Positions 20,359-48,787 of a DNA stretch of 64,000 bases are shown in pieces. Source of the DNA: Rhodobacteraceae bacterium Alg231-04 (GTDB lineage: Bacteria; Pseudomonadota; Alphaproteobacteria; Rhodobacterales; Rhodobacteraceae); assembly GCA_900143635.1 (NCBI GenBank), contig FREY01000011.1, positions 3 to 64,002 on the forward strand, in the 5' to 3' direction. Each line of letters begins with the position of its first letter. Positions within the stretch are counted from its first letter, which is position 1. A program made the translations under genes and the position numbers. Under the pieces are notes generated by a model. The model ran no database searches, had not been told where the DNA came from, and saw nothing but the letters and a program-made list of their open reading frames with translations.

Positions 20359-23300
20359 TCAGTCTGGCATATTTACGATCGCCACCTTATCGATACAGTC
20401 TCTTGCCAACTCGACCAGATGCGCGTGGTGTGTGAAGAGGATTGCTTGTCCGTTCGCGCCGATCTCGGCACAGAGTTGCAAGGCCGCTCGTGCCCGCACA
20501 TCGTCAAATGTCTCCATGATATCGTCTAGGACCATCGGCAGTGGGCCAGGGTCACGCGCAAAGCTGCGATATCCAGCAAGACGCAACGCAAAGTACAGCT
20601 GACCCATTGTGCCCGTCGACATCTGCTCCACAGGAACCGTGTTTCCATCTGGCTGAATACCGACGAGCTTCTCGCCTTCGGACTGTGTCCAGACATCAAC
20701 ACCGGTCCAGGCCGGGGAGGTCATGGTGACGAAAGCCTCTTCGACGTCGCGCAGCATGCTGCCGCGCCGCTCTGCCGCAAGGCGACGCAGCGCCCCTCGT
20801 GCCGCCAGCACTCCGAGTCTAGCCACAGCCGCCTGACGCGCGCCGCTCCGTAGCTCTTCCAGCAGTGTCGCTTGTTCGGTCGCGAGGTCGCTGCGGTCAG
20901 CGGCTTGAAAAGCTTCGCGATATAACCGGTCAGCTTCTCGCTGAGCATCGCGGGCGGCGTCCCGGGTGAGCTGTGCGTCTTGCTGCGCCTGTTCCAGCTC
21001 TGTCGAGCGCGTTGCGTCAGGCATCCGATCTAGTTCCTCGGCGAAAAGATCGGCATCGACTCCTTCACGGGCTTTTTGGCGATCACGTGCCGCAATTGCC
21101 TTTTCCGCTCGCAGACGATCACGTTCAACCAACTTTGCAACACGATCGCGAGGTATCAAGTCCTGACCACCTTGCCCTTCGAAACAAGATTCTAGGTGGG
21201 CGTTCGCATCCTGGAGCTCCGTCTCTGCGCGACGTTTGAAACGGTAAAGTTCATCCCGTCGCAGAACCGCCTCTTCCCGTTTTTCGTCTGCCCGCACGGC
21301 CAAAGCTTGACGCGAGCGAGCGCGGTCGATGATCTGGACAGGATCTGCACCGTTTTCAGGATCCCCCAAAATTCGGATCAAGCGCTCTGCGCTATCTGCT
21401 AGCGCAGCGATCGCTTGCTCCAAGGCCCCAATCCGCATTGAGAGCTTTCTATGCTCTCCATAAAGCTGCTGCAGGCTCCGAAGGTGCGGCAAAGCGGCTC
21501 GAATACCATCAAGCGAACAATCCGGCAACGGTAACGCAGAAGTTAATTGTTCAAGCTTTTTCAAAGCGAAGTCGAGATCGTCGCGCGCTTGCTTAGCCTT
21601 TTTTTCCAACTCAGCAATGGTCTTCTCACCATCCTGCCATTTGGCCCAAGCCTCGCGATCGCTTTTTTCCAACGTGAGCGCTCTCTGAATTTGAGTGGGC
21701 AGATCACCTTGCGCGGGATCATACCCAAGGGTACGCGCCGCTCCAGTCAACGCATCGCAAGCCTCAGCTTGTTGCACAAGACGGTCTTTCAATGCTCTTT
21801 CAGCATTGGAAACATCGGCCGCGGCTTCGGCAGCCGTCGTCAGAGCTTGTTGGCGAGCGTTGAAGGCCGAAACGGGCGTGCCTGCTTCAAACCCCAGTGC
21901 CAGCGCCAATCTTGAACAGCTTTCTGACAAGCGGTCATGTCTCACTTTCAAGTCGTCGTGACGGATCTTTGCAGTTTCATGCCGGGCTTCAGCGCTCCGC
22001 ACCTGTCCCTGTGCGGCCAGCAGCCGCTGCCGAGCCTCAGCACCCGTAAGGTAATGTGCTCGGGCGCTGTCATCAGCGTACATCGCCGCCTCGAACTGGT
22101 CAGCCGTCTCACCCGTCAGATCACCCCGATGCTGCTGCCATTCGATATCACGCTGCCGCCGCGTCTCTTCTGTCTTGACGATGTCAACGGCGTCAGGTGC
22201 AGCCTCCTGCGTAGATAGATCTGCCCGGGCCTCCACCAACTCGGCTACGCGGGCCTCGAGGCCTTTCCGAGCCGACGCAAGATCGGCAGTTAGGGTCGCC
22301 CAATCCTGACTGACTTCGTCGAGCGTTTCTCGCGCAGGTAGGCCTGATGCAACAAGATCCATCCATGACTGCGGCAGACCAGCTGCGACCTTAGTCAGGC
22401 GCGCCAAAGCTTGGCCATGGGCAACTTCGAAAGCGGACATATCCGCCACGGCTTTCCATTTTTCAAAAGCGAGTCTCAGAGCCGTCAAATCTTGCGGCTC
22501 ACGGGGCGCTTTGCCATGTTGGGCGAGAGCGACTTCAGCGGCCTCCTTTGCAGCACCGGCTGAAAGATTGGCCGTCAAGCACTCCTGTACTGCCGTGGCG
22601 AGGTCCTCCAAATCATTTGCCTCTAATGCGATTGTGGATGGCGGCGCATCCGGCACCTCGAGGAGAACCAAAATTTTGTCTATCTGCTGTCCGAGGTTGT
22701 CCAAGTCTTCGCGGCGACGGTCGAGGTCAGCCTTCGCGGTGCTCGCGCGCCCCAAAAGCGGTGCACCATCAAAAGTTAGTTGATCAAGCCGTTCCAACTC
22801 TGCCTTCAAAGGCTGGGCCAAGTTGTCGATTGGGTGGTCTTCGATGATCTGATCTAGTTTGACGATTTCTTCTTCCGCTTCAGTGACTCGGATCGACTGA
22901 GCCGCGATTTTCTCGACCAGGGCAGCGACACGCTCTGCCGCATCGGGGGCAAGGTCGGGACCGCCGGGAAAATCGGCCAAGGCTTCAGTTAGTTGCCCCA
23001 TCTTCTCGGTCCGATCATACCATAACTCCGCAGCCTTCGACGCTGCTTGTCGTTGATAAACTTGTCGAAGCTCAGCATCGGCAGTTTCGAAATCGGCTAC
23101 TGTCCGGTCACGATCTTGGCGAAGTTTGCACTCTCGCTCAGTCGTCAAGTGATCAGCACGCAATTCGCGACCAATCTCTTTGAGACGATCACTGCCGGTC
23201 TTCAATACCGTACCCCGACCACGTTTCTTGTAGAATTTGTCTGCTCGCTCAGCCAAGGAATCTAGAGTTTGAGCCATCCCTGTCAGGCCGGAGAGACCTG

Positions 23301-23760
23301 CATGCAGGAGTTGGCCAAGGTCACCCTGCGCTCCAGCTATCCGCTCGCCGCCCTCTCGCAGACCTTTCTCATTGAGTGAAAACCGTTCCTCATAGGTGTC
23401 TCGAGTCAGGCCGTGCAGAGCTCCAGACAAAATCGCCTCGTTTATAGGGCGTTCGTTCGAGTCCAGCAGCGATTGGGTTCTCTTGCTGTTGCGACGCAAT
23501 ACGGTGGTTCCACGTTCAGGCAGATCAAGTTCAGCACCCACCACAAGATCACTTCGATCGAACCGGAAAGCGTAGGGATGTGCCCCGCCTTTGAAACCGA
23601 AGAGCAATTCCAGAAAACCATTGAAAGCGGTAGACTTGCCTGCCTCGTTCTGTCCGAAAACCACCGTTACATCAGGTTTCCCATCGGCCGGTTTTGGAAA
23701 ACAAATTTCGGCATCTTTAAAGCGCCCATAACGGATAAGATCCAACCGGTTCAATCTCAT
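20359..23760 (-). CDS. SbcC/YhaN-like coiled-coil ATPase
   Basis: 1133 residues of the SMC-Rad50 superfamily. It starts MRLNRLDLIRYGRFKDAEIC; Walker A FGQNEAGKST is near 37, and very long coiled coils lie at about 180-1000. The ABC signature region MSTGTMGQLYFALRL is at 1047, Walker B LPMVLDDIMETFDD near 1075 and the H-loop ILFTHH near 1110. There is no CxxC zinc hook, which fits YhaN rather than SbcC/Rad50. It should pair with the metallophosphoesterase encoded just upstream, whose stop overlaps its ATG by four bases (23757-23760), to form an SbcCD-like DNA-processing complex. It is last of a three-gene operon headed by an RloC-like ATPase. Confidence 0.85.
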   Translation of the reverse strand: MRLNRLDLIRYGRFKDAEICFPKPADGKPDVTVVFGQNEAGKSTAFNGFLELLFGFKGGAHPYAFRFDRSDLVVGAELDLPERGTTVLRRNSKRTQSLLDSNERPINEAILSGALHGLTRDTYEERFSLNEKGLREGGERIAGAQGDLGQLLHAGLSGLTGMAQTLDSLAERADKFYKKRGRGTVLKTGSDRLKEIGRELRADHLTTERECKLRQDRDRTVADFETADAELRQVYQRQAASKAAELWYDRTEKMGQLTEALADFPGGPDLAPDAAERVAALVEKIAAQSIRVTEAEEEIVKLDQIIEDHPIDNLAQPLKAELERLDQLTFDGAPLLGRASTAKADLDRRREDLDNLGQQIDKILVLLEVPDAPPSTIALEANDLEDLATAVQECLTANLSAGAAKEAAEVALAQHGKAPREPQDLTALRLAFEKWKAVADMSAFEVAHGQALARLTKVAAGLPQSWMDLVASGLPARETLDEVSQDWATLTADLASARKGLEARVAELVEARADLSTQEAAPDAVDIVKTEETRRQRDIEWQQHRGDLTGETADQFEAAMYADDSARAHYLTGAEARQRLLAAQGQVRSAEARHETAKIRHDDLKVRHDRLSESCSRLALALGFEAGTPVSAFNARQQALTTAAEAAADVSNAERALKDRLVQQAEACDALTGAARTLGYDPAQGDLPTQIQRALTLEKSDREAWAKWQDGEKTIAELEKKAKQARDDLDFALKKLEQLTSALPLPDCSLDGIRAALPHLRSLQQLYGEHRKLSMRIGALEQAIAALADSAERLIRILGDPENGADPVQIIDRARSRQALAVRADEKREEAVLRRDELYRFKRRAETELQDANAHLESCFEGQGGQDLIPRDRVAKLVERDRLRAEKAIAARDRQKAREGVDADLFAEELDRMPDATRSTELEQAQQDAQLTRDAARDAQREADRLYREAFQAADRSDLATEQATLLEELRSGARQAAVARLGVLAARGALRRLAAERRGSMLRDVEEAFVTMTSPAWTGVDVWTQSEGEKLVGIQPDGNTVPVEQMSTGTMGQLYFALRLAGYRSFARDPGPLPMVLDDIMETFDDVRARAALQLCAEIGANGQAILFTHHAHLVELARDCIDKVAIVNMPD

Positions 23761-24938
23761 TGGGAGGTACCCGCATGCAGAGTTAGAGAGACTTCTGCAA
23801 TCGCGTCTTCGAGAAGCGCATCCAATCTCTCCTCAGCAACCTCGTCTGTGATTTCTGACGGCATAGCTAGACGCAGTTCTTCGAGCTGTTGGAGAGCGGC
23901 CTGTCGAAAACCATCTTCGGAGAATTCAACCTGCATCAAGCGAACCAAATCGTCTGTCTCGGGACTGACTTGGCTGACCGACGGTGCCGATTTAACCTTA
24001 TCGAGGAATACGCCATTAATACTGTCCAGGACTTCTGACGCCAGCTCTGTAACAAGCTCCGTACCATATCGATCCGAGGTAGTGTTAAGGCGTACCGCTA
24101 CATCGCGCCCTGGCACTTGCGTGGTCATTAATCCGTCGCGCAATCTTCTAAGTACCTCTTGTTGGTCAGAACAGGCGCTTAGGTCTAGAGAGCATTCAGA
24201 AAAGCCAAGTCGCCCAACCGCTTGGCGTTCAAATTCCGGGACCCCATCCCCCATCGAAACCAAGGTCACAGTTCCCCCGTGACGCTCGCCAAAATGACGC
24301 GGTTGCGGGATACCTGGCATAACCGCCAGAACCGATCCATCAACTCGCTCAAACGGTGCGTGAATGTGCCCCAGACACCAAAGATCGAAACCGTGCCCCA
24401 TCAGGTCCTGTTCAGCGCAAGGCGCATAGGGATCATGACCTGGGGCACCATCTAGCGAGGTGTGCATAAGACCAATATTTCGTTTTCCCGGAACTGGGAC
24501 TGGGTAGTCCGGTAGGAAGCTCTTTGCCACATGCGCCGTATCGAAAGACAGGCCATGGAACGCAGCATCACCGATTTCGACGGTAGGAGCGTCTTTGTGC
24601 AAAAGATGGATATTTGGCCCCAAGTCTCCATGAGCATTGTGATCCAAAAGCGCGTCGTGGTTGCCCCGGATCAGTACCGTGGGCACCCCAGCTTCTGCGG
24701 CACGCGCCAGCTGAGTTATCAGGAAAGCACGAGACTTAAGATCCGGGTAACCATTGTCAAAAATGTCACCCGCTAGCACAAACGCATCGACCTGTTCCGA
24801 TATCGCCAGATCAACGATCTCGACAAAGGCATCACGGCTGGCCTGCTTCAAGCGATCTCCCAGGTCGGGGTTGCGTAGTGCCACAGACCTTATTGGTGAT
24901 CCTAGGTGAGTGTCCGCTGACACTAAAAGGCGCATCAT
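23757..24938 (-). CDS. SbcD/YhaO-like metallophosphoesterase (DNA exonuclease subunit)
   Basis: 393 residues of the Mre11/SbcD/YhaO calcineurin-like nuclease family. All phosphoesterase motifs are visible: SADTHLG (D9, H11), AGDIFDNGY, RGNHDALLDH, LMHTS and CLGHIHAPF. The C-terminal 130 residues are a helical capping/ATPase-contact region. It overlaps both neighbours by ATGA, so its product should be made stoichiometrically with the YhaN-like ATPase and the RloC-like protein. The residues look active. DNA is the expected substrate from family knowledge. Confidence 0.88.
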   Translation of the reverse strand: MMRLLVSADTHLGSPIRSVALRNPDLGDRLKQASRDAFVEIVDLAISEQVDAFVLAGDIFDNGYPDLKSRAFLITQLARAAEAGVPTVLIRGNHDALLDHNAHGDLGPNIHLLHKDAPTVEIGDAAFHGLSFDTAHVAKSFLPDYPVPVPGKRNIGLMHTSLDGAPGHDPYAPCAEQDLMGHGFDLWCLGHIHAPFERVDGSVLAVMPGIPQPRHFGERHGGTVTLVSMGDGVPEFERQAVGRLGFSECSLDLSACSDQQEVLRRLRDGLMTTQVPGRDVAVRLNTTSDRYGTELVTELASEVLDSINGVFLDKVKSAPSVSQVSPETDDLVRLMQVEFSEDGFRQAALQQLEELRLAMPSEITDEVAEERLDALLEDAIAEVSLTLHAGTSQ

Positions 24939-27205
24939 GCTCCATCTACCTCCTGTTCGATAAGAGCTTGATCTTGGACATTGTCTACGACTTCCAAAGG
25001 GAGCGGAACGTAGTCATCACCCATCATCATCTTGTAATGGCCGGCATGACCCGACTCTTCGAAAATCCGCTGGAAAACAGCAAGGTGACGATCAACTTGG
25101 TTTGGATCACAAGCCAAGTAGAGATCATCTGGAGCAAAGTGCGAGCCATCGTTGATCCACGACAGCAAAGAATTGCAGACCATTTTGTCTTTGCCTTCGA
25201 AGCTGTCGATAATTGTCTCAGGCGTGATCCCGCCGTAGAACTTGAAGTAGTGTTCGAGAATTCTTCTAGTGACGTTCTGGATCGCGGTATCTGACGGCGG
25301 TTTTTGCCGGACCTCGCGCCAAAGTAGCTCATAGCTCGATTTGATCGGGTTCTCGTTGAAAGGCACAATCTGTGAGCAATCCGATGTCTTACGCACTACC
25401 CAAAACGTTTCATCACTTCTTGCCGTGGCACCGCTGCGCTTTTTATCGAACGTCACCTCCTTGTGGAAATAAATATTGTGCGTGAGTACAAACACTTGCT
25501 TGATTGGGCTTGTACCGGAACGCATCTCGGTAACTATGTGTTTTATCAGATTGCAGACGATGAAAAGAATGTCCGCGTCAAGGCTCGAGACGGGATCGTC
25601 GAACACAACAACTTTGTCGTTGGTGCCACCGCTCGAGTTGAACGAACCCCGGATCAGATACCAAAAATATAGGAAAGTAATGAAGGACTTCTCGCCTTCG
25701 CTCAGCGTCCGTTTCGCGTCGCTACCGTCCGCACGTTTGACTTCATAGAAACCGCTCTCCTCGCCTTCTGCGAGATGAAAATTGGTGAACCCAAATGACT
25801 TCAGAAGCTTATTGATGGCATCAATCGTTGGCTTGATGCTTGTAATCTTACGTTCATTTTCTTCGATCTCCTCTTGCTTGGCCACCAAGTTTTTCATTTC
25901 GGTCTCAATCTGACCGTTTAACGATGTGATCGCCTTGTCGAGATCATTAGCCTCCGTGTTGAACTGATTGTAGGTTGTCTTTGTGTCTTCGAGCAGCCGC
26001 TTCCAAACCTGGGATGTCAGTTCCTTCTTGCGAGCGGCAAGATTGTCAATGGTATCGTTGTTTGCTTTGACTTTCGCGTTGGCCGTGCTGATATGCCCAT
26101 TCACCGCAGCAAAGAGTGGGGCTGTGTCGGTGAGCGTGGCAGGAGCGCTTGGTTCTTTTCGTTTGGCTGAAATGTGCTCTACATTGCTATCCAGAGCGAG
26201 GCGAAGGGCTGTGACATCCTTCTCGAAAGCTTCGCGGTCAAGGTATGACGACTCAACAGTCTCGGCGGCGCTATATCCATCCAACAAGTTATTCGCAGCA
26301 GCCCTGTAGTCCGAAAGCAACTTGTCGATATCACCTAGGTCGGCAATATAAGTCTCGTCGAAATACGTCTCCAGGCTCAGCTTGAAGGCCGCATCAGTTT
26401 CTTGCTGACAAAACGGACACTGATCTTCCAATTGATCAAAAAAATGCCGCCCTTGCTGAACCCAGTCGCTATTGCCGAGCGTTTCAATCAGCCCAGCGAT
26501 ATCCACGTCTTCTTTGCCGATGATCTTTTTCTTTAGGATCGCGGCGCCTTCTAGCGCCGTAACCTTTGAACTGTCCTGATCGGGCAAAGTGCTTGCCGTT
26601 GTTAGCGCTCCCGAGAAGACGATCTCCGCGTCATCGCGGAGTTCTGTCATTTCCCTTAAAGTCGTTGTGTTGCTTGAAGCCTCTATCAGATAGCGGTCTC
26701 GGAATTTTTTCTTGTCGCTGTTGAGGCCAGTGAAGGCATCTTTCAATTCACTGAACTTTCCCTTGGCGTCCCAGACATTCTGCAAGAGGAGCGTATCGAG
26801 CGTTTCGCGTTCTTTCTTTTTTCCGCTTTCTCCATCCTCCCCAATAAGAATTTTTCGAAGGTTCTTTAGCTTAGCATCGATCTTATCAGCTTCGCCCTTT
26901 AGCGTCTTAATCCTTGTAGCGACCTCGATGTTCTCGCCGAAGGTGTAGATACCCTTGATGCTGCTTTCGGCATCGAAGTGTTTTTCCACAAAATCCTTGT
27001 TATAAACGCGGGTTTCTAACGCCGCTCCGCCTGTCCAGGATATCTTGCAATCAGGAAAACTTCCCGTGCCCTCGACCACACGAGAGATTGTTGTCTTTCC
27101 TGATCCGTTAGAACCGAAGATGTAATTGAGCTTCTTTAACTCTTCGAGCTTGGTGCCTGTCGCATCATACGCACCTTCATTCGCCAAAAATATGCTTTCG
27201 ATCAT
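24935..27205 (-). CDS. RloC-like ATPase, putative anticodon nuclease
   Basis: 756 residues, AAA_13 family. Walker A GSNGSGKTT is near 32; coiled coils flank a zinc-hook CPFC at 263-266. Then come the signature TLSEGEKSFITFLYFWY, Walker B VVVFDDPVSSLD (about 535) and H-loop VFVLTHNIYFHKEV. The C-terminal domain has R647-x3-E651 (RRILEHYF) and H689 (WINDGSH), the same order as the Arg-Glu-His triad of the PrrC anticodon nuclease. RloC is the zinc-hook version of PrrC, a phage-exclusion tRNA nuclease, with a similar length. It is first gene of the operon, with about 200 bp upstream for a promoter. ATPase and hook are certain; nuclease activity is inferred. Confidence 0.75.
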   Translation of the reverse strand: MIESIFLANEGAYDATGTKLEELKKLNYIFGSNGSGKTTISRVVEGTGSFPDCKISWTGGAALETRVYNKDFVEKHFDAESSIKGIYTFGENIEVATRIKTLKGEADKIDAKLKNLRKILIGEDGESGKKKERETLDTLLLQNVWDAKGKFSELKDAFTGLNSDKKKFRDRYLIEASSNTTTLREMTELRDDAEIVFSGALTTASTLPDQDSSKVTALEGAAILKKKIIGKEDVDIAGLIETLGNSDWVQQGRHFFDQLEDQCPFCQQETDAAFKLSLETYFDETYIADLGDIDKLLSDYRAAANNLLDGYSAAETVESSYLDREAFEKDVTALRLALDSNVEHISAKRKEPSAPATLTDTAPLFAAVNGHISTANAKVKANNDTIDNLAARKKELTSQVWKRLLEDTKTTYNQFNTEANDLDKAITSLNGQIETEMKNLVAKQEEIEENERKITSIKPTIDAINKLLKSFGFTNFHLAEGEESGFYEVKRADGSDAKRTLSEGEKSFITFLYFWYLIRGSFNSSGGTNDKVVVFDDPVSSLDADILFIVCNLIKHIVTEMRSGTSPIKQVFVLTHNIYFHKEVTFDKKRSGATARSDETFWVVRKTSDCSQIVPFNENPIKSSYELLWREVRQKPPSDTAIQNVTRRILEHYFKFYGGITPETIIDSFEGKDKMVCNSLLSWINDGSHFAPDDLYLACDPNQVDRHLAVFQRIFEESGHAGHYKMMMGDDYVPLPLEVVDNVQDQALIEQEVDGA

Positions 27206-27407
27206 CCAAACTTCTCAGCAATAAAATGAAGCCCTCGAATCCCACAACGGCCAGAGGTCATCCCGCACCGTCGCATTCGATCACAAATTATGCAATCATA
27301 GCGTGTTGCCGGACGGAACACTTTGACCACTCTGAACGATGCACCGCAGGTTCAAATCTGGATTTACCCAGTATTTCTTAAATGTTCCGGTATCGTGACA
27401 ACTATCG

Positions 27408-33300: not shown

Positions 33301-33480
33301 TTAAAGCTCAACACCGGCTTTCAAGTTGCCGTCCGGATCCAGCCAGGAACGGGCCTCGGCGCAATCCAAGCAAATACAGGAGCAACTGCCTTTCACGATG
33401 ACCGGCGCGAGAAAGATCACTGGGTTTGACGCGCCGCATTTGCGGCACGTCATCGGGGGCAGGATTGCTGGCCCGCTCAT
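33301..33480 (-). CDS. Small zinc-ribbon protein coupled to ardC
   Basis: 59 residues starting MSGPAILPPMTCRKCGASNP. Cysteines in CRKC and in CSCICLDC give a likely zinc ribbon. The ATG overlaps the ardC stop (33477-33480, ATGA), and a strong terminator follows, so it is the second and last gene of the ardC operon. Function unknown; by position it may help ArdC or act on DNA in the recipient. Confidence 0.7.
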   Translation of the reverse strand: MSGPAILPPMTCRKCGASNPVIFLAPVIVKGSCSCICLDCAEARSWLDPDGNLKAGVEL

Positions 33481-34355
33481 GCTGCGGCCGCTTTCGACTG
33501 ACCTGCGGCTGCTAGGACAAAATCGGCTGCCTTCTGGGCCTCGGACGCCGCACGAAAAATCGCCCGTTTGTCTTCTTTGAGCGCTTTCAACCAGCCTTCA
33601 ACGTAGGCGGCGCTTTGGTCGAATTCCGGCGCGACGCCAATCTGAGCACCAAGAAAACAAGCGCCAATTTCCGCCACCAGCTCTTCAAAGGCATAGGCCT
33701 CACGGTTTGCAAACTTCTTGATCCGCTCCAGCCGCTTTTCGCTGCCGGTCCAATGGATCACCTCATGGGCCAACGTCCCATAATAGCCTGCCGCATCGTG
33801 AAACGTGGCAATCGGCGGCATGTGGATGTGATCTTTGGCGGGGCTGTAATAGGCACGCGGATCATCACTGGTGAGAATCTCGGCCCCTGTCCGGCCGAAA
33901 AACGCCTCAAGCTCTGGATCTTCCGCCGTGCCCAGGTCGCGCGGGGCCTCGGGCCGGATGTAATACTCCTCCGGCAATCCCTCGATCTGATCCGCATTGA
34001 AAACGCGATAGGCGCGCACATAGGGCAGCTCTTCCTCGATGCCCAACTCGTTCTCTCGGGTGAAGGTCCCGTATTTGACCACGGTCGACGACGTTTCGCC
34101 TTTACGGACTTGGCCGCCCAGCTCCTGCGCCTGTTTGTAGGTCATCCAGCGGCTGGAAACATGGCCATGCTTGGCCGCCATGATCCAGAGCATCAGGATG
34201 TTAATCCCGCGATACTCCTCGCCGTTGTGCCGTGTCGGCAGGGCAATGCCGGACGCGCTTCCAGTCCACGGCTTGCGCCACGGCGGCGTGCCCGCCTCGA
34301 TCTCTGCAATAATGGTGTGGGTGACATGGGCATAAACATCAAACTTCGGTGCCAT
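33477..34355 (-). CDS. ardC: ArdC-like antirestriction protein
   Basis: 292 residues. The N-terminal ssDNA-binding ArdC domain contains FDVYAHVTHTIIAEIEAGTP, PWRKPW, RHNGEEYRGINILMLW and a SSRWMTYKQAQELGGQVRKG block. The C-terminal zincin-like metallopeptidase domain has HEVIHWTG near 197, with a further Glu in FEELVAEIGA. ArdC proteins protect incoming conjugative DNA from host restriction. It is read toward oriT in the probable leading region, behind leader copy B with GAGGAGG as ribosome-binding site. Confidence 0.9.
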   Translation of the reverse strand: MAPKFDVYAHVTHTIIAEIEAGTPPWRKPWTGSASGIALPTRHNGEEYRGINILMLWIMAAKHGHVSSRWMTYKQAQELGGQVRKGETSSTVVKYGTFTRENELGIEEELPYVRAYRVFNADQIEGLPEEYYIRPEAPRDLGTAEDPELEAFFGRTGAEILTSDDPRAYYSPAKDHIHMPPIATFHDAAGYYGTLAHEVIHWTGSEKRLERIKKFANREAYAFEELVAEIGACFLGAQIGVAPEFDQSAAYVEGWLKALKEDKRAIFRAASEAQKAADFVLAAAGQSKAAAA

Positions 34356-34925: not shown

Positions 34926-35798
34926 ATGACAAGCGAATCGAATAGTCTTTCACGATGGCAGCAGGATCGCCGTGCATTCATTGAGCACAGGGTCTTTTGG
35001 CGTGGACGTGTCGGCCTTGCGGATCTGATGGATGTTATGGGCCTCAGTCGGGCTCAAGCTTCGAAAGACCTCAATAGCTACATCAATGATCATCCCGAAC
35101 ACATCATCTACGATAAAACGGCCAAGACCTACGTTCTGGGCCCAAAGTTCGAAGAACACTACACTGCGCTTGATCCGTCAGAGTATCTTGATGATCTCCT
35201 GTCGATCTCACGGGGCGGTTCAGTCCCCGCTGCAGACTGGATTGTCTACCAACCGGACATTCTGGCAACCACTGTGCCTGGGCGCGGACTAAGCGCACTA
35301 ACACTTCGCAACGTCTTATTGGCCTGTGAACAGCGCAAAGAGCTGCAGATAAGCTATCAGTCCATGTCCTCCCCCGATCCAGAAAATCGCGTTATCATTC
35401 CTCATGCCCTCGCACATGACGGATTTCGTTGGCATGCGAGAGCGCTTTGCTCAAAAGACCAAGTTTTCAAAGACTTTGTTCTCGGACGCATACTGAAGAG
35501 CGCATTGGGGGAACAATCAGATGCCGACGCCGGTACCGATGAAGACTGGCACCAAACAATAACGCTCAAAATCGCACCGCACCCTGGCCTGTCTGAAAAC
35601 CAACGCAGGATTGTAGAGCTAGACTATGCAATGAATGACGGGGCGGCAGAACTTTCAGTGCGAAAGTGCCTATTGTTCTACAATCTAAAGCGGCTAGGCC
35701 TTGATGTTGATCCAAGTATCCGCGCCCCGCAGGATCAGCACATAGTTTTGATCAATGACGGAGAAGTCCGCGCTGCTCTCGAGAGGGGACGGCGATGA
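34926..35798 (+). CDS. brxR: BrxR/CapW-like WYL-domain regulator of BREX
   Basis: 290 residues. The N-terminal winged helix is about 10-75 (WRGRVGLADLMDVMGLSRAQ). The central WYL domain covers about 125-215, with LQISYQSMS, HALAHDGFRWHARAL and FVLGRILK. A C-terminal WCX-like extension follows. This is the plan of the BrxR/CapW repressors that precede BREX and other defence loci and sense phage infection or DNA ends. The stop overlaps brxA (ATGA), making it the first gene of the BREX operon, probably autoregulated. There is no obvious Shine-Dalgarno sequence. Confidence 0.9.
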   Translation: MTSESNSLSRWQQDRRAFIEHRVFWRGRVGLADLMDVMGLSRAQASKDLNSYINDHPEHIIYDKTAKTYVLGPKFEEHYTALDPSEYLDDLLSISRGGSVPAADWIVYQPDILATTVPGRGLSALTLRNVLLACEQRKELQISYQSMSSPDPENRVIIPHALAHDGFRWHARALCSKDQVFKDFVLGRILKSALGEQSDADAGTDEDWHQTITLKIAPHPGLSENQRRIVELDYAMNDGAAELSVRKCLLFYNLKRLGLDVDPSIRAPQDQHIVLINDGEVRAALERGRR

Positions 35799-36409
35799 GT
35801 GCTTTCGCGAGACAAGACTACAAGATGTCATTTAGCACCGGCGGGCTCTTCCTGAACGAAAGCCTGGAAGTCGCGCGCTTGCATAAAAACGGTGAAGCTT
35901 GGGAAGACACAATTCTCAGAGCCATGGAGGAAGGCACAACCAGCCTACCGAAATCAGCATCGAACCGTCGATCGTTGCGCGAAATTTCTAATCGCCTGCT
36001 TACTCTTACGGATGAGGAACGCGCTTACCTTGTGGAAGAGGCGGACCGCTCCGAACAGCAGGCGATGTTGTGGATCGCCACATGCCGCGCATATCGGTTC
36101 ATTCGTGAATTTGCGGTGGAAGTGGTGAGAGAGCGATACCTATCTTACCAACTCGATCTACCGCTCGAAAGCTTTGACATTCTTTTTGAGGCAAAAGCTG
36201 AATGGGATGAAGGACTGGCCGGATTAAGTCGGTCGACCCGCCTGAAACTTCGTCAAATCATGTTTCGCATGATGCGTGAAGCCGGGATCATTTCAGAAGA
36301 TGATCGCATTCAAACCGCGATTATTTCCACACGTTTCAAACACATGATTGAAGACCACAACCCCGGCGAGCTGGCCATTTTCCCCAGCGTTCCGGTCGAG
36401 GGAGCTTAA
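35795..36409 (+). CDS. brxA: BrxA (DUF1819)
   Basis: 204 residues. A helical DNA-binding-like protein of BREX. It shows the family-typical start YKMSFSTGGLFLNESLEVAR, the middle RAYRFIREFAVEVVRERYLS and the FRMMREAGIIS wing region. It overlaps the regulator by 4 bases and ends one base before brxB. Needed for BREX in some systems; the exact role is unclear. Confidence 0.92.
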   Translation: MSAFARQDYKMSFSTGGLFLNESLEVARLHKNGEAWEDTILRAMEEGTTSLPKSASNRRSLREISNRLLTLTDEERAYLVEEADRSEQQAMLWIATCRAYRFIREFAVEVVRERYLSYQLDLPLESFDILFEAKAEWDEGLAGLSRSTRLKLRQIMFRMMREAGIISEDDRIQTAIISTRFKHMIEDHNPGELAIFPSVPVEGA

Positions 36410-36410
36410 A

Positions 36411-37013
36411 TTGAAACGAGAACTAAACCGGAAAGAGCGGGCCGAGCATCTATACCGCGTGATCACCAGCGAACGTTTCCTGACCAAACAAGGCCTAGGG
36501 AATGAAGTGCCATTTTTTATCTACCCCTTTCCTGCCGAGGAAGGGCTCACCATGGTTGAGGATCGCGAAGATCTTGTGGCCCGAATTCAGCACTCTGGCA
36601 CTCAAGTGTTGGACCTGAACCTTTACGATCTCGCGCTCGACATACTTTCAGAGCGCGGGATCTTAGAGCAGGTTCTCGAAATTGAGGCCGACAGTAGCAA
36701 GGGTGAGATCAAGGAGCTTCTCCAAGGCGTCTTGGACCCACAGGCCCACCTGATCCCGCGTATTGGCCAGGCGATCCAAGCAATCCCGCATGACGTCATT
36801 TTCTTGTCAGGCGTCGGTGAGGTATACCCTTACATCCGCTCTCACAACGTGCTGAACAACCTACAAAGCACTGCGAAAGAAGCACCAACCGTTCTCTTCT
36901 TCCCTGGAAGCTACACCCATGCTTTGGCGACTGGCGCGTCATTGGATCTCTTTGGTCAGCTTCATGACGACAAGTATTACCGCGCCTTCAACATTCTGAA
37001 TTACGAGGTCTAA
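36411..37013 (+). CDS. brxB: BrxB (DUF1788)
   Basis: 200 residues from a TTG start at 36411, chosen because it follows the brxA stop by one base, with GGGAG just upstream. The DUF1788 pattern is present: VPFFIYPFPAEE, LDLNLYDLALDIL, VIFLSGVGEVYPYIRSHNVL and the C-terminal TVLFFPGSYT. No catalytic residues are known. It is a core BREX component of type I systems, 4 bp upstream of brxC. Confidence 0.92.
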   Translation: MKRELNRKERAEHLYRVITSERFLTKQGLGNEVPFFIYPFPAEEGLTMVEDREDLVARIQHSGTQVLDLNLYDLALDILSERGILEQVLEIEADSSKGEIKELLQGVLDPQAHLIPRIGQAIQAIPHDVIFLSGVGEVYPYIRSHNVLNNLQSTAKEAPTVLFFPGSYTHALATGASLDLFGQLHDDKYYRAFNILNYEV

Positions 37014-37017
37014 GCCC

Positions 37018-40000
37018 ATGGCCCAGCTGCTAAAAGACATTTTTGAGAAACCCGTTGATCGCGCCATTGACGGCGTCATCAAGGCCGACGACGAGGCAAG
37101 CCTCCGCATCGAGCTCGACGAGTACGTCATCACAGGAGAGATCGGCCAACGGCTGGAGCAGTTCCTCGAAGCCTACAACAACTATGACACTTCAAATGGC
37201 GTCTGGATCTCTGGCTTCTTTGGCTCTGGTAAGTCGCACTTGCTGAAGATGCTGGCTCTACTGCTCGAAAATCGTGAGGTCGACGGCAAAACTGCTCACG
37301 AGATCTTCGCTGAAAAGCTCAAAGGCGAGCCAATGCTGGCAGGCGCACTCAACAAGGCCGTTTCCATCCCGTCGAAATCGATCTTGTTCAATATCGACCA
37401 GAAGGCAGATGTGATCTCGAAAACGGATGTAGATGCGCTTCTATCTGTCTTCCAAAAGGTCTTTGACGAAGCCTGCGGGTTCTATGGCAAACAGCCTCAT
37501 ATCGCGCAATTCGAACGCGACTTGCAGGGGCGTGGGCAATTCGAGGCATTCAAAGAAGCTTTTCGAAGCGCTGCCGGTAAAAACTGGGAACGCGGTCGAG
37601 AACAGGCGCTGCTCGAAGCCAAGAATATTGCGACAGCGTTTGCAGAAGCAACCGGTGGTGATCCTTCAGATGCAAAAGACATCCTGAGCCAATACCGGAA
37701 GGACACACGTGTCTCGATTGAGGACTTCGCTGGCACAGTCAAAGCTTGGATCGATGACCAGCCCAAGGGTTTCCGGCTCAACTTCTTCGTTGACGAAGTC
37801 GGCCAATATATTGCGGACAATGTAAAGCTCATGACCAACCTGCAAACCATCGCAGAGAGCCTTAACACCAAATGCAAAGGGCAGGCTTGGATCATAGTAA
37901 CTGCGCAGCAAGACATGGCGTCGGTTATCGGCGACATGACGCAACAGCAAGAGAATGACTTCTCCAAAATTCAGGCCCGCTTCAGCAACCGTATGCCGCT
38001 GAACTCGGCCGATGTCGCTGAAGTGATCCAGCGCCGCCTCCTCGCCAAGACGTCGGAAGGGCAAGTGACGCTTGGCAACCTTCATGACCGCGAAGAAAAC
38101 AACCTCAAGACCCTGTTCGATTTTGCTGACGGCTCGATGAAGCTTAAAAACTACCGGGATCGCGAACACTTCATCTCAAGCTATCCTTTCCCCCCCTATC
38201 AGTATGACCTCTTTCAAATGGCGATCACGTCTTTGTCGGAGCACAACGCATTTGAAGGCAAACACAGCTCGGTCGGCGAGCGGTCGATGTTGGGCGTTTT
38301 CCAAGAGGTCTCGAAGAAGCTGAAAGACAAAGAAGTCGGAGGGTTGGCCACTTTCGATCTTATGTTCGAAGGGATCCGCACCGCGCTGAAATCTTCGGTT
38401 CAGCAGAGTATTCAGATTGCCGAAAAAAACCTGGACGATCCGTTCGCCGTTCGGGTCTTGAAATCCTTGTTTCTCGTCAAATACGTCAAAGGCTTCAAAC
38501 CGTCGGTTCGAAACATCGGAATTCTGCTCCTGTCAGAGTTTGAGGCGGACCAGACGAGCCAACGCCGCAAGATCGAGGAAGCATTGAGCCGTCTGGAAAG
38601 GGAAACCTATATCCAGCGGAACGGTGAGGTCTATGAGTTCCTCACCAATGAGGAAAAGGATGTCGAAGCGGAAATCAAAGCCCTCGACATAGACCCTTCT
38701 GAGCTCTCGAAAGAACTCGAAACCCTCGCATTCGATACCATTCTGCGTCATCGCAAGATCAAGCATCTCGCAACCAACAGCGAATATTCCTTTACCCGGA
38801 AGCTTGATGATCACGCGGTTGGTCGCGAGTACGAACTGGCAATCAATCTCGTTTCGCCCCTCAGCGACGAGGTTGAAAGCCCCGATGGCATTCGAATGAA
38901 AACTATGTCTCGGGAAGAGCTCGCGGTTGCCATGAAACCAGATGCCAACTTCGTCCGCGACCTGATCCTGTTTAAGCAAACGGACAAGTTCATCCGTCAG
39001 TCCCGCAGCGGTTCTCCGCAGCCGGGCCGCGACCGTATCGTCGCAGAAAAAGGAGAACAAAACGGCCGCCGCGCAAAGGACCTTGAAATGCGGCTTCGCA
39101 AGTTGATGGGAAGCGCCCGACTTTTCGTCAGGGGTGACGAATTGGAGATCGGTGGAGAGGATGCTCAAGAGCGCATTAGCAAGGCGTTCCAGTCCCTGGT
39201 CGACAAAGTCTACACCAATCTCCCGATGCTGCGCGGCGTCAGCTATACCGAGGCCGATATCAACAAAGCGGTACAGTCGGAAAGCGGGCTCTTCGGTTCT
39301 GACGGCACAGGTATCAACGAAGCCGAACAAGACGTCCTCAGCTTCATCAATGCGCAGGCACGCAACGGGGTGAAGGTCTCCGTCAAATATCTGGCTGATC
39401 GGTTCACATCCAAACCCTACGGCTGGCCAGTAACCGCAGTCCTTTGCCTTGCAGGCAGCTTGGTCGCCAAAGGAAAAATCGAAGCGCGCGTCGACAGTGC
39501 CATCAAGGAAGGGCTGGATCTCGCCAAGGCGTTGAACAACAGTCACGCGCTAACGAACATATTGCTGACCCCTCAGACGGAATTCTCCGCTGCAGAAATT
39601 CGGCGGGCGAAAGAACTATATCAGGAACTCTTTGCGCATCCCTCATCAGGAACAGATGCGCGCAGTTTGGGCGCAGAGTGGGCTACAAGCATTGATGCAC
39701 TTGAAGCCGAGGTAGACCGGTATGTTCGCCAGTCGCACAGCTACCCTTTCCTAACCGCGCTCGAGCCGTTCCATGAACTGCTGCGGGGCATGAAGGGCAA
39801 ACCGGCGAACTGGTATATTTCCGACGCACCCAAGCGCGAGGATGACCTTCTGAACGCGAAAGAGGATATCCTGGATAAGGTGAAATCCTTCATGGGGGGT
39901 GCACAAAAAGGTATCTACGACGACGCCCGCGATATGCTCGACAGCCAATCTGCCAACATCGACTATGTCGATCCTGATGCTGGGGCGAAGCTGCGCGCCG

Positions 40001-40536
40001 CATTGGAGGATCCGGGCTGCTTTAAGGGGTCATCGATCCAGAACCTCAAATCCGACCTGTTTGACCTGAAAAACAAGGTTGAACTCAAGGTTCTTGAGGA
40101 ACGCAAATCCGTCATCGCAGAGGTGGAAGACGTCTCTGCTAAGATCGCGCAGATGCCGGACTTCCAGGCGCTCGACACGGACAAACAAGCCCGCATCACC
40201 GCGCGCATCGAGAGCCACAAGGCAGGCCTCGACACGGTCACGCTGATCCCTGTGCTGCGCGACCGGGCCAATGGCGCGCGCACCAACCTGCTGTCGGACG
40301 TCGTCACCGAACTCGACCGCCTCGCGCGACCGACACCTGCGCCCGAGCCACAGCCCGGCATGTCGGACCGGCCTGCGCCCGCGCCGCAGCCTCCCACTAC
40401 AGTCCTCGCCTCGCAGCTGAAGGTCACAGCCCCCAAGACGCTGCTGACCGATGAAGCGGACGTCGACCAATACCTTGAAGAAATGAAAAAGACCCTGCTG
40501 GCCGAAATTCGCGCGGGTAAGAAAGTTATTGTGTAA
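37018..40536 (+). CDS. brxC: BrxC ATPase
   Basis: 1172 residues, DUF499-type P-loop ATPase. It starts MAQLLKDIFEKPVDRAIDGV; Walker A GFFGSGKSHLLKML is near 65-78; KLNFFVDEVGQYI-like Walker B near 255-265 reads LNFFVDEVGQYIAD. The C-terminal third includes a Pro-rich linker (PTPAPEPQPGMSDRPAPAPQ) and then the tail. The stop overlaps the pglX start by one base (TAATG). Essential in studied BREX systems. Confidence 0.95.
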   Translation: MAQLLKDIFEKPVDRAIDGVIKADDEASLRIELDEYVITGEIGQRLEQFLEAYNNYDTSNGVWISGFFGSGKSHLLKMLALLLENREVDGKTAHEIFAEKLKGEPMLAGALNKAVSIPSKSILFNIDQKADVISKTDVDALLSVFQKVFDEACGFYGKQPHIAQFERDLQGRGQFEAFKEAFRSAAGKNWERGREQALLEAKNIATAFAEATGGDPSDAKDILSQYRKDTRVSIEDFAGTVKAWIDDQPKGFRLNFFVDEVGQYIADNVKLMTNLQTIAESLNTKCKGQAWIIVTAQQDMASVIGDMTQQQENDFSKIQARFSNRMPLNSADVAEVIQRRLLAKTSEGQVTLGNLHDREENNLKTLFDFADGSMKLKNYRDREHFISSYPFPPYQYDLFQMAITSLSEHNAFEGKHSSVGERSMLGVFQEVSKKLKDKEVGGLATFDLMFEGIRTALKSSVQQSIQIAEKNLDDPFAVRVLKSLFLVKYVKGFKPSVRNIGILLLSEFEADQTSQRRKIEEALSRLERETYIQRNGEVYEFLTNEEKDVEAEIKALDIDPSELSKELETLAFDTILRHRKIKHLATNSEYSFTRKLDDHAVGREYELAINLVSPLSDEVESPDGIRMKTMSREELAVAMKPDANFVRDLILFKQTDKFIRQSRSGSPQPGRDRIVAEKGEQNGRRAKDLEMRLRKLMGSARLFVRGDELEIGGEDAQERISKAFQSLVDKVYTNLPMLRGVSYTEADINKAVQSESGLFGSDGTGINEAEQDVLSFINAQARNGVKVSVKYLADRFTSKPYGWPVTAVLCLAGSLVAKGKIEARVDSAIKEGLDLAKALNNSHALTNILLTPQTEFSAAEIRRAKELYQELFAHPSSGTDARSLGAEWATSIDALEAEVDRYVRQSHSYPFLTALEPFHELLRGMKGKPANWYISDAPKREDDLLNAKEDILDKVKSFMGGAQKGIYDDARDMLDSQSANIDYVDPDAGAKLRAALEDPGCFKGSSIQNLKSDLFDLKNKVELKVLEERKSVIAEVEDVSAKIAQMPDFQALDTDKQARITARIESHKAGLDTVTLIPVLRDRANGARTNLLSDVVTELDRLARPTPAPEPQPGMSDRPAPAPQPPTTVLASQLKVTAPKTLLTDEADVDQYLEEMKKTLLAEIRAGKKVIV

Positions 40537-43500
40537 TGGATACCAACGCGCTCAAGAAATTTGCCCAAGCCGCCCGCAACCTGTTGATCGATCAGGTCGC
40601 TTCCAAGCTCGACGTTGTGCTGGCTGAGGGCAGCGCCGCGCGGCGTGAGGCCCCGAAGGCGGTCAAAGACCTCGAAAACGCCATTGCCAAAGCAGACAAG
40701 CGTCAGGTCATCGAACAGGTCGCCTACACCTGGTTCAACCGCTTCACCGCCCTGCGCTTCATGGATGCGAACGGCTACACGCAGGTTCGCACAGTCTCCC
40801 CGGCCGACGGGGCCACGCGGCCTGAACTGTTGTCAGAAGCGATGGCGGGCAACCTGCCGGACGGTGCCCCCACGACCATCCAGTCCCTCCTCGACGGGCG
40901 CACGCCGTCTCATGACCCACAGGCCGAGGCCTATCGCCTCCTGCTCGTCCATACCTGCAACCAATGGCACGGCCCCATGCCGTTCCTGTTCGAGGAAATC
41001 GACGACTACACCGAACTGCTGATGCCCGAGGATCTGCTGTCACAGACCTCCATCCTCGCCGAACTTCGCAAGGTGATGACCGAGGACGCCTGTCAGGATG
41101 TCGAGATCATCGGCTGGCTCTACCAGTTCTACATCTCGGAGAAGAAGGATCAGGTCTTCGCGGGCCTCAAGAAGAACCAGAAGATCACAGCCGAGAACAT
41201 CCCCGCCGCGACGCAGCTTTTTACCCCGCATTGGATCGTGCGCTATCTGGTGGAGAACTCGCTCGGAAGGCTGTGGCTGCTCAATCGCCCGCAGTCGAAA
41301 CTGGCCGAGCGGATGGACTACTACATCGCGCCGGAAGAGCCCGAGACGGATTTCCTGAAGATCGGCAAGCCCGAGGAGATCAGGGTCTGCGATCCGGCCT
41401 GCGGGTCAGGGCACATGCTGACCTATGCCTTTGACCTGCTCTACGCCATCTACGAGGAAGAGGGATATGACGCGACCGAGATCCCCGCGCTGATCCTGAC
41501 GCACAACCTGACGGGGGTGGAGATCGACGACCGAGCGGGCGCGCTGGGTGCCTTTGCGCTGGCGATGAAGGCGGCGGCGCGGCTGGGGCGTCGGCGGTTT
41601 CTGCGGATGGAGGCAAAGCCCGACATCTGCGTCTTGCAGAACGTGAGCTTTACAGAGACCGAGATGCAGGACGTGGCCGCCGTCGTGGGCAAGGATCTGT
41701 TCACCGATGAGCTGCGCGAGACATGTGCGCAGTTCGAGCAGGCCAAGAACTTCGGCTCGCTGATCGTGCCGAAACTGCGTGACCCGGCAGAGACGTTGCG
41801 GGTGGTCGAGGCGCGGGATTTTGGCGGCGACCTGCTGTTGAAGGAGGTGCAGGAGCGCGTTTTGGCCGTGCTGCGCATGGCCGAGGCGCTGTCGCCGAAG
41901 TACCACGTGGTGGTGGCCAACCCGCCTTATATGGGCGCGCGCAACATGAACCCTCAACTAAAAAAATGGACCGACAAAAACTATCCAGACAGCAGAACGG
42001 ACCTTTTTGCTCTTTTCATGGAACGTTCTTTGGCTGCCTGCGCCAAGAACGGGTACATGGCCATGATCAATATGCAGTCATGGATGTTCCTTTCTTCATT
42101 CGAAAAGTTGAGGGCAGCCCTTCTCTCAAAGGGGACCATTCTTACGATGGCCCATCTGGGCGAGCGTGCTTTTGACACAATCGGTGGAGCTGTGGTGTCT
42201 ACCACGGCTTTCGTTTGCCGAAACACAAGCATGAAGAGCTATGCTGGCGCGTTCATTCGCGCAATCTCGGGCCGAAATGAATCGGAGAAACAGGAAATAC
42301 TGTTGGCTGCTGCAGGGGGATCCCCTGATAGTCTTTTCCGTATTTCTCAAAGCGAGTTGGTTGGGGTTCCCGGAACCCCAATTGCCTATTGGCTTAGCGA
42401 GAGTGTCCGCGAAGCGTTTGGCAATTTCGATCCTCTCCGTTCAATTAGTGTTCCGCGCCAAGGAAATACTACTACTGACAACGAGCGGTTTGTCCGATTT
42501 TGGCCTGAAGTCTCTAAACCTTCGCTTGGTACAGATTTCGCAAGTGCCGAGGACTTCAACGCCGAACGAAAGAAATGGGCGCCGTACAACAAAGGCGGGG
42601 GTTCCCGCCGCTGGTACGGGCAAAATGATTCAGTGGTTAATTGGGAACAGAACGGACGTGAAATTAAGGCTATCCCACACTCTGTGATCGCTAATGAAAA
42701 AAGCTATTTTTCTCCTGGCCTCACATGGTCGACGATTTCCACGAATGACATTGGATTTCGCCACTTCGGGCATGGCTTCCTATTCGATAATAAAGGCGCA
42801 TGCATATTCGTCTCAGACGCCATGCAGCAATACCTTGCGAGCCTTCTGAATACGAAAGTGTTCGTTAGCATTTTGTATCAGATAAATCCGACCGTTTCCC
42901 TACAGCCCGGCGATGTTGCCAAATTTCCGGTAATCCCAATGGAGGCTGTAGACTCATCGTCCGCCCGATCCAACGCGACAGGCTGCATCAATCTGGCGAA
43001 ATCCGACTGGGACGCCTACGAAACCTCCTGGGACTTCACGACGCTCCCGCTGCTCTCGCCCGAGCATCGCGGCAGGACGCTGGAGGACAGCTACGCCACG
43101 CTCCGCACCCATTGGCAATCCATGACGGACGAGATGCAGCGGCTGGAGGAAGAGAACAACCGCATCTTCATCGACGCCTATGGTCTGCAGGACGAGCTGA
43201 CCCCCGAGGTGTCGCTGAACGAGATCACCCTCACCTGCAACCCCGCCTATCGCTATGGCGTGAAGGGCAGCGAGGAAGACCGTGAAACCCGCCTGCGCGC
43301 CGACACCATGGCCGAGTTCCTCAGCTATGCCGTGGGCTGCATGTTCGGCCGATACAGCCTCGACGCGCCGTGCCTGATCCTCGCCAATCAGGGCGAGCGG
43401 CTGGAGGATTACCTCGCCCGCATCCCCGAGCCGAGTTTCATGCCGGACGAAGACAACGTCATCCCCGTGCTTGACGAAAACTGGTTCCCCGACGACATCA

Positions 43501-44021
43501 CCGAACGCTTCCGCCTGTTCCTGCGCGTGACCTTCGGCGAGGCGCATTTCCGCGAGAACCTGAAGTTCATCGAGGACAGTCTGGGCAAGGACATCCGCAA
43601 ATACTTCACCAAGGATTTCTACGCGGACCACGTGAAGCGGTATAAGAAGCGCCCGATCTACTGGATGGTCTCCAGCCCCAAGGGGACGTTCAACGCGCTG
43701 ATCTACATGCACCGCTATCAAAGCGACACGGTGTCGGTGCTGCTCAACGATTACCTGCGCGAGTTCATCACAAAGCTGGAGGGTGAACGCGCCCGGCTGG
43801 ACAAGCTGTCCGATGACCCGACCGCGACCCAAGGCCAGAAGACCAAGGCGCTAAAGGATGTGGCGGCGGTGGCCAAGCAGATCGACGAGCTGAACGAATG
43901 GGAACGCGACGTGATCTTCCCGCTGGCGCAGCAAAAGATCGAGATTGATCTGGATGATGGGGTGAAGGCGAACTATCCGAAGTTCGGCACCGCGCTGAAG
44001 AAGATCGCGGGGCTGTCATGA
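40536..44021 (+). CDS. pglX: PglX (BrxX) adenine methyltransferase
   Basis: 1161 residues, type I BREX length. It methylates an asymmetric adenine motif to mark self DNA. The SAM-binding motif CDPACGSGHMLTYAFD is near 290 and the catalytic NPPY in VVANPPYMGARNM near 462. A target-recognition region follows (about 475-810) and a helical C-terminus. Base composition changes sharply inside the gene: about 65% GC at 41581-41640 against 45% at 42421-42480, with GC-rich sequence resuming after about 42960, so the recognition part seems swapped in. It overlaps pglZ by ATGA. Confidence 0.96.
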   Translation: MDTNALKKFAQAARNLLIDQVASKLDVVLAEGSAARREAPKAVKDLENAIAKADKRQVIEQVAYTWFNRFTALRFMDANGYTQVRTVSPADGATRPELLSEAMAGNLPDGAPTTIQSLLDGRTPSHDPQAEAYRLLLVHTCNQWHGPMPFLFEEIDDYTELLMPEDLLSQTSILAELRKVMTEDACQDVEIIGWLYQFYISEKKDQVFAGLKKNQKITAENIPAATQLFTPHWIVRYLVENSLGRLWLLNRPQSKLAERMDYYIAPEEPETDFLKIGKPEEIRVCDPACGSGHMLTYAFDLLYAIYEEEGYDATEIPALILTHNLTGVEIDDRAGALGAFALAMKAAARLGRRRFLRMEAKPDICVLQNVSFTETEMQDVAAVVGKDLFTDELRETCAQFEQAKNFGSLIVPKLRDPAETLRVVEARDFGGDLLLKEVQERVLAVLRMAEALSPKYHVVVANPPYMGARNMNPQLKKWTDKNYPDSRTDLFALFMERSLAACAKNGYMAMINMQSWMFLSSFEKLRAALLSKGTILTMAHLGERAFDTIGGAVVSTTAFVCRNTSMKSYAGAFIRAISGRNESEKQEILLAAAGGSPDSLFRISQSELVGVPGTPIAYWLSESVREAFGNFDPLRSISVPRQGNTTTDNERFVRFWPEVSKPSLGTDFASAEDFNAERKKWAPYNKGGGSRRWYGQNDSVVNWEQNGREIKAIPHSVIANEKSYFSPGLTWSTISTNDIGFRHFGHGFLFDNKGACIFVSDAMQQYLASLLNTKVFVSILYQINPTVSLQPGDVAKFPVIPMEAVDSSSARSNATGCINLAKSDWDAYETSWDFTTLPLLSPEHRGRTLEDSYATLRTHWQSMTDEMQRLEEENNRIFIDAYGLQDELTPEVSLNEITLTCNPAYRYGVKGSEEDRETRLRADTMAEFLSYAVGCMFGRYSLDAPCLILANQGERLEDYLARIPEPSFMPDEDNVIPVLDENWFPDDITERFRLFLRVTFGEAHFRENLKFIEDSLGKDIRKYFTKDFYADHVKRYKKRPIYWMVSSPKGTFNALIYMHRYQSDTVSVLLNDYLREFITKLEGERARLDKLSDDPTATQGQKTKALKDVAAVAKQIDELNEWERDVIFPLAQQKIEIDLDDGVKANYPKFGTALKKIAGLS

Positions 44022-46513: not shown

Positions 46514-46522
46514 GGACCTATC

Positions 46523-48598: not shown

Positions 48599-48637
48599 CG
48601 GTGAAACTGAGTAGATATTTCAGAAAAGAGCAAAGCC

Positions 48638-48775
48638 ATGTTCCGCGTTGATTTGAACCAAAACCGCTTGTCCCGCCTGTCCCAGAAGCGCTTCGCCGAC
48701 TTGAACCTGTGCGAGCGCGGCGATTTGCAGGAACGGCTTGCGAACGAACCAAAATTGCAGATGCGCAGAAATTAG
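48638..48775 (+). pseudogene. 45-codon remnant of a nuclease-type N-terminus
   Basis: MFRVDLNQNRLSRLSQKRFA then DLNLCERGDLQERLANEP. This resembles the N-terminus of DUF91/DUF4268-type nuclease-like proteins, where the pattern 'F-x-x-L-x-L-x-E-R-x-D-L-Q' precedes a much larger domain. Here the frame stops after 45 codons. It lies in the 190 bp between brxL and the DUF262 gene, so it is probably the stub of a BREX-linked accessory gene replaced by its neighbour. A genuine micro-protein is possible. Confidence 0.5.
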
Positions 48776-48787
48776 ACGGACGAACGA

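Follow-up and report, generated by a model that had tools for sequence, protein, structure and literature searches.

An RloC-type anticodon nuclease gene overlapping a YhaO/YhaN-like Mre11/Rad50-type pair in a putative conjugative element of Rhodobacteraceae

The three genes and their predicted products

The window analysed here, a stretch of 64,000 nucleotides from Rhodobacteraceae bacterium Alg231-04 (contig FREY01000011.1), is a contig end in a 4.8-Mb genome. Its ORF map contains three minus-strand genes with two junctions, each overlapping by exactly 4 bp. The first gene (24935–27205) encodes a predicted RloC anticodon nuclease of 756 aa with an ABC/Rad50-like ATPase, a zinc hook and a putative C-terminal HEPN-type R-x3-E...SH nuclease region, the second (23757–24938) a 393-aa metallophosphoesterase of the YhaO/SbcD/Mre11 type, and the third (20359–23760) a 1133-aa YhaN-like Rad50-type ATPase. 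The RloC–YhaO junction (24935–24938, minus strand) is an ATGA stop/start overlap, GGAGCATGATGCGCC, that is found in the window and in two further elements, L041 and L063, and the YhaO–YhaN junction (23757–23760, minus strand) is an ATGA overlap shared with the pairs in L033–L037 and L042–L049. The trio has the same orientation as VirD4 and starts 202 bp behind it, and this gap (27206–27407, minus strand) is the sole intergenic leader upstream of the trio in the gene map. Two convergent transfer operons, the VirB operon on the plus strand and the VirD4/relaxase operon on the minus strand, flank the three genes.

RloC was defined by Davidov and Kaufmann as a protein of 658–897 aa whose ABC ATPase is split by a CxxC hook (PMC2610378), with the C-terminal pattern R-x3-E-x36-52-H in which Ser often precedes His (PMC2610378). 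The 756-aa protein displays all of these features in size, split ABC ATPase, hook and C-terminal pattern. It matches PF13166 at 3e-175 over residues 11–716, PADLOC PDC-S06 at 4e-270 and PADLOC PrrC at 1e-10. The CPFC zinc hook occupies residues 263–266, and the C-terminal triad reads R647-x3-E651-x37-H689 with S688 before the His, inside the published spacing. The hook cysteines and R647, E651 and H689 were first found invariant in six homologues; across several phyla, 45 homologues keep C263, C266, R647, E651, S688 and H689 unchanged, and their Walker A, LSEGE, FDDP and THN motifs are invariant or nearly so. In the AlphaFold model of the protein, the head is Rad50-like and matches 5da9_B with a VIA Z of 16.7 and an rmsd of 3.4 over 241 residues. 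A 122-aa model of the C-terminal domain (pLDDT 75) is all-helical, and the solved folds closest to it include AbiV and HEPN toxins, with weak VIA Z values of 2.7–4.0 that lie within noise. A PDB sequence search with RloC returned no related structure. In a published analysis, the PrrC/RloC nuclease was assigned to the HEPN superfamily (PMC3710099). The protein is predicted to be a true RloC-type anticodon nuclease.

The 393-aa phosphoesterase matches PF00149 at 1.3e-14 and SbcD/Mre11 entries of the PDB at 1e-6 to 1e-3, and all eight metal ligands (D9, H11, D58, N93, H94, H159, H191 and H193) are present. The adjoining 1133-aa ATPase matches PF13514 AAA_27 (YhaN) at 2e-53, and its translation contains the Walker A GQNEAGKST and the Walker B VLDD. 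No CxxC hook was found in this ATPase or in 21 relatives. A phosphodiesterase-motif metallophosphoesterase next to a Rad50-type ABC ATPase is the composition of an Mre11-Rad50, SbcCD or YhaON pair, and the second and third genes are predicted to encode a YhaO/YhaN-like pair of the Mre11/Rad50 type, hookless and with intact catalytic motifs. SbcCD proper was rejected because the phosphoesterase match to TIGR00619 sbcd (7e-16, 58.7 bits) lies below the cut-off of 77.65 and the ATPase is without CxxC. The PADLOC 2.0 models gave no strong match to YhaO or YhaN of the mobile pair.

A first-pass annotation of the window had already given the coordinates, lengths, strand and both 4-bp overlaps, and the ORF map confirmed them exactly; the cargo slot between convergent transfer operons that it described is likewise borne out by the two flanking operons. 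Its suggestion that the 756-aa protein looks like RloC agrees with PF13166, PDC-S06 and the motifs, and the CPFC at 263–266 and R647, E651 and H689 that it pointed out are present and invariant in the 45 homologues. Its description of a metallophosphoesterase with all nuclease motifs and a YhaN-like 1133-residue ATPase without a hook holds as well, with all Mre11-type metal-ligand motifs found, an AAA_27 match and zero CxxC.

The surrounding element and the history of the cassette

Based on the tRNA-Cys, the tyrosine integrase, the VirB genes (plus strand), the VirD4/relaxase genes (minus strand), ArdC and a type 1 BREX system, the window looks like it carries an integrative conjugative element. 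At 1786–2959, the tRNA-Cys(gca) adjoins the tyrosine integrase, and this is probably the attachment end of the element. The ArdC anti-restriction gene (33477–34355) lies 6 kb from RloC, and an RloC–ArdC linkage was already remarked in 2008 (PMC2610378). The type 1 BREX system (34926–50917) is complete with a WYL regulator, BrxA, BrxB, BrxC, PglX, PglZ and BrxL, and is followed by a gene for a GmrSD_N and Schlafen/AlbA_2 fusion (48788–50917, PADLOC PDC-M55C/HEC-05). A HipA-type kinase gene (52574–53875, minus strand) is located beyond BREX.

The exact trio is known from three Rhodobacteraceae genomes (the window, L041/L064 and L063) and sits in the same VirD4/VirB6 slot in all three. The element of an uncultured member of the family, L063, additionally carries a RES-domain, toxin-like gene between VirD4 and RloC (L063:4839–5756). 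Elsewhere the two halves are largely separate. A scan of about 85,000 species genomes gave 80 retained RloC loci; the YhaON pair is absent from 78 of them and present only in L063 and L064. Of the 296 genomes sampled from the family, 51 contain a YhaO relative and only 3 a close RloC, and the two stand side by side only in the window and in G241, the same organism as L064. RloC is also found alone directly downstream of VirD4, in a similar slot, in the Phaeobacter plasmid pP24_b. Since the trio-linked RloC proteins and the trio-linked YhaN proteins each form one clade (support 100 in both cases) nested among unlinked kin, RloC and the pair were joined once. The three-gene linkage is thus confined to one clade and one slot; with only two genomes besides the window and a single joining event behind it, the trio does not have the wide spread of a named system.

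The YhaO–YhaN overlap is ancestral within the clade of the pair. The RloC–YhaO overlap is specific to the trio, yet it has been kept in three elements at 12–18% protein divergence. The leader GATGGA..ATGATG is common to RloC-linked and RloC-free YhaO genes, which, although this shared leader is very short, suggests attachment of RloC at the ribosome-binding site of YhaO. RloC, YhaO and YhaN each show a dN/dS of 0.10–0.18 and are therefore all under purifying selection. Between the window and L063, dS is 0.41–0.61 for the trio and 1.05–1.84 for VirB6, VirD4 and the relaxase; the flanking transfer genes have thus diverged more than the cassette. In the comparison of the window with L041, the two parts show similar divergence. 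Because the trio dS lies below the backbone dS in the comparison with L063, the cassette was most likely exchanged as one block between related elements.

The YhaO/YhaN pair keeps varied company of its own. Its close kin adjoin Gabija, HerA-DUF4297 together with Shango, AbiE, HipA or RmrA/Fic. YhaO/YhaN stands directly behind GajA-GajB in L037/L044 (with identical YhaN). In L042 it lies a few kb from Gabija on the opposite strand, and the pair of L033 has a GajB fragment nearby; a Gabija–YhaON association is possible.

Recurrent adjacency of RloC to other Mre11/Rad50-type pairs

A profile of the Mre11/SbcD/YhaO type was run over the 80 RloC loci with a window of 6 kb, and a metallophosphoesterase of this type was found within that distance of RloC in 7 of them. 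Five settings beyond the trio were recognized. L082:6001-12722, on a Desulfobacterales metagenome contig, contains RloC-SbcD-SbcC with a 4-bp overlap and a hook-bearing SbcC, and its RloC has one in-frame stop. In L117, RloC is followed by a pair of 369 and 876 aa, and in L135 a related pair is followed by RloC. L097 and its plasmid relative L039 share the order SbcD-SMC-small gene-RloC, and in L073 and its plasmid relative L032 the pair lies 5 kb from RloC, beyond an R-M system. Counting independent settings with the trio included, the pair is on the RloC strand in 6/6 and directly adjacent in 4/6. The RloC-adjoining pairs are of at least three kinds, namely long hookless YhaON, short hookless and hook-bearing SbcCD-type, and the phosphoesterases of the other pairs are only 19–22% identical to that of the window. 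In the plasmid loci L032:18536-23613 and L039:2193-7291, near RloC, a WYL regulator is opposite SbcD and a hook-bearing, weakly LmuB-like SMC, an arrangement resembling an independent mobile defence module.

For a control, the same kind of profile was applied to 240 alphaproteobacterial genomes, where it gave 46 places, and 57 HsdR places served as the defence control; none of the latter had such a metallophosphoesterase within 6 kb, the nearest being about 12 kb away. The contrast between RloC and HsdR (7/80 versus 0/57, p = 0.02; 5/80 versus 0/57, 0.06) is one of small counts, with a profile built partly from RloC neighbours, differing taxa and an alphaproteobacterial control only. In a scan of viral contigs, 0 of 80 RloC loci had an Mre11-type neighbour, and the RloC loci in class-level genome searches were too few for a statistical test of linkage. 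We regard the excess of adjacency as a real but modest signal. Part of it may be island hitchhiking, because defence genes cluster. Repetition in independent contexts favours a functional link, and the repeated adjacency of RloC to Mre11/Rad50-type pairs hints that the two work together.

The first-pass annotation had asked for the same three-gene order elsewhere and for an association with defence islands. The order does occur in two other genomes, but in the same slot and from one joining event, and the island association is found for the close kin of the pair, which adjoin Gabija, HerA-DUF4297/Shango, AbiE and other defence genes. Its proposal of a new defence system is only partly supported: RloC stands repeatedly beside other Mre11/Rad50-type pairs, and the exact trio itself is rare and of one origin. 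The purifying selection on all three genes, the lower divergence of the cassette than of its flanks between two elements, and the repeats with other pairs nevertheless make the trio more than a single accidental adjacency.

Known systems and interpretation

The RloC proteins of Geobacillus kaustophilus and Acinetobacter baylyi have the same size, ABC motifs, CxxC hook and R-x3-E...SH triad as the protein of the window. Known RloC is a double-strand-break-responsive, wobble-nucleotide-excising anticodon nuclease that stands alone or is now and then linked to R-M or Pgl, whereas the RloC gene of the window shares 4 bp with the first gene of an Mre11/Rad50-type pair. YhaO/YhaN and SbcCD, the bacterial Mre11-Rad50, consist of the same overlapping phosphoesterase and ABC ATPase with all catalytic motifs; the pair of the window belongs to a mobile clade that shares about 33–43% identity with most other YhaO homologues of the family, has no zinc hook and is located on plasmids and in defence islands. 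PrrC-EcoprrI likewise combines an anticodon nuclease with a DNA-attacking enzyme as a second line of defence, but there the DNA-attacking partner is a type Ic R-M enzyme, which keeps PrrC silent, while in the window RloC senses by itself and is accompanied by a nuclease pair directed at DNA ends. Lamassu (LmuABC) also joins a Rad50/SMC-like ATPase to an effector nuclease; the window contains no LmuA-type effector, and RloC itself is both ATPase and effector. Lamassu was rejected as an assignment, with LmuA matching none of the three proteins and LmuB matching RloC only, at 6e-20 versus 4e-270 for PDC-S06 (PADLOC). RloC and YhaON/SbcCD are each known, and their joining is not described in the open-access papers searched, in agreement with the first-pass statement that such a coupling is not known as a named system; a paper naming RloC, SbcCD and defense island together treats them separately.

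Mre11/Rad50-type pairs make, trim or remove DNA ends. Linear DNA and inducers of double-strand breaks switch on the RloC nuclease, whose activity lasts only as long as ends are present (PMC3874168). We give about an even chance to the reading of the locus as defence cargo of an integrative conjugative element, in which two separately evolved DNA-end modules are co-expressed and layered, neither being obligate for the other. RloC was set once onto the start of the YhaON pair, so that the three genes would be expressed as one operon. In the first layer, the YhaO/YhaN pair would most likely attack or process DNA ends, whether the DNA is invading or broken. RloC, by homology, would sense double-strand ends via its Rad50-like ATPase and zinc hook, cleave tRNA anticodons and halt translation as long as DNA ends remain. 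Each module could act without the other. A single obligate machine of RloC and YhaON is disfavoured, because each half is common alone and the RloC-adjoining pairs are so different. That a general two-layer logic of end-processing and translation shutdown at persisting ends drew RloC and varied Mre11/Rad50-type pairs together is possible, though on the doubtful side.

The integrated single system proposed by the first-pass annotation, with YhaON as sensor/nuclease and RloC as its dedicated effector in a physical complex, is unlikely. Both 4-bp junctions are kept in three elements and RloC has come together with different Mre11/Rad50-type pairs on several occasions, as such a system would have it, but RloC functions alone with an end-sensing ATPase of its own (PMC3874168), the partner is absent from most RloC and most YhaON loci, and the subfamilies of the partner pairs differ clearly, an argument against any single specific protein interface. 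Plain cargo stacking, in which two unrelated defence modules share a slot and the overlap provides shared expression without a functional tie, is somewhat unlikely: the solitary RloC behind VirD4 in Phaeobacter pP24_b, the free change of neighbours of the YhaON pair and the empty viral-contig scan fit it, but the independent same-strand repeats, mostly in direct adjacency and in excess over HsdR loci, speak against it. A damper, in which YhaON trims or removes ends and thereby limits or ends RloC activation and shields the host from its own tRNA nuclease, is very unlikely. Mre11-type nucleases are established to process ends and a shared operon would match expression, and RloC activity requires persisting ends (PMC3874168), but most genomes tolerate RloC without such a partner.

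By its company of Gabija, HerA-DUF4297, Shango and AbiE, the mobile YhaO/YhaN clade is a candidate defence module. The operon that pairs RloC with an Mre11/Rad50-type nuclease, together with the several independent repeats of this pairing, makes the makers and removers of the DNA ends sensed by RloC directly testable.
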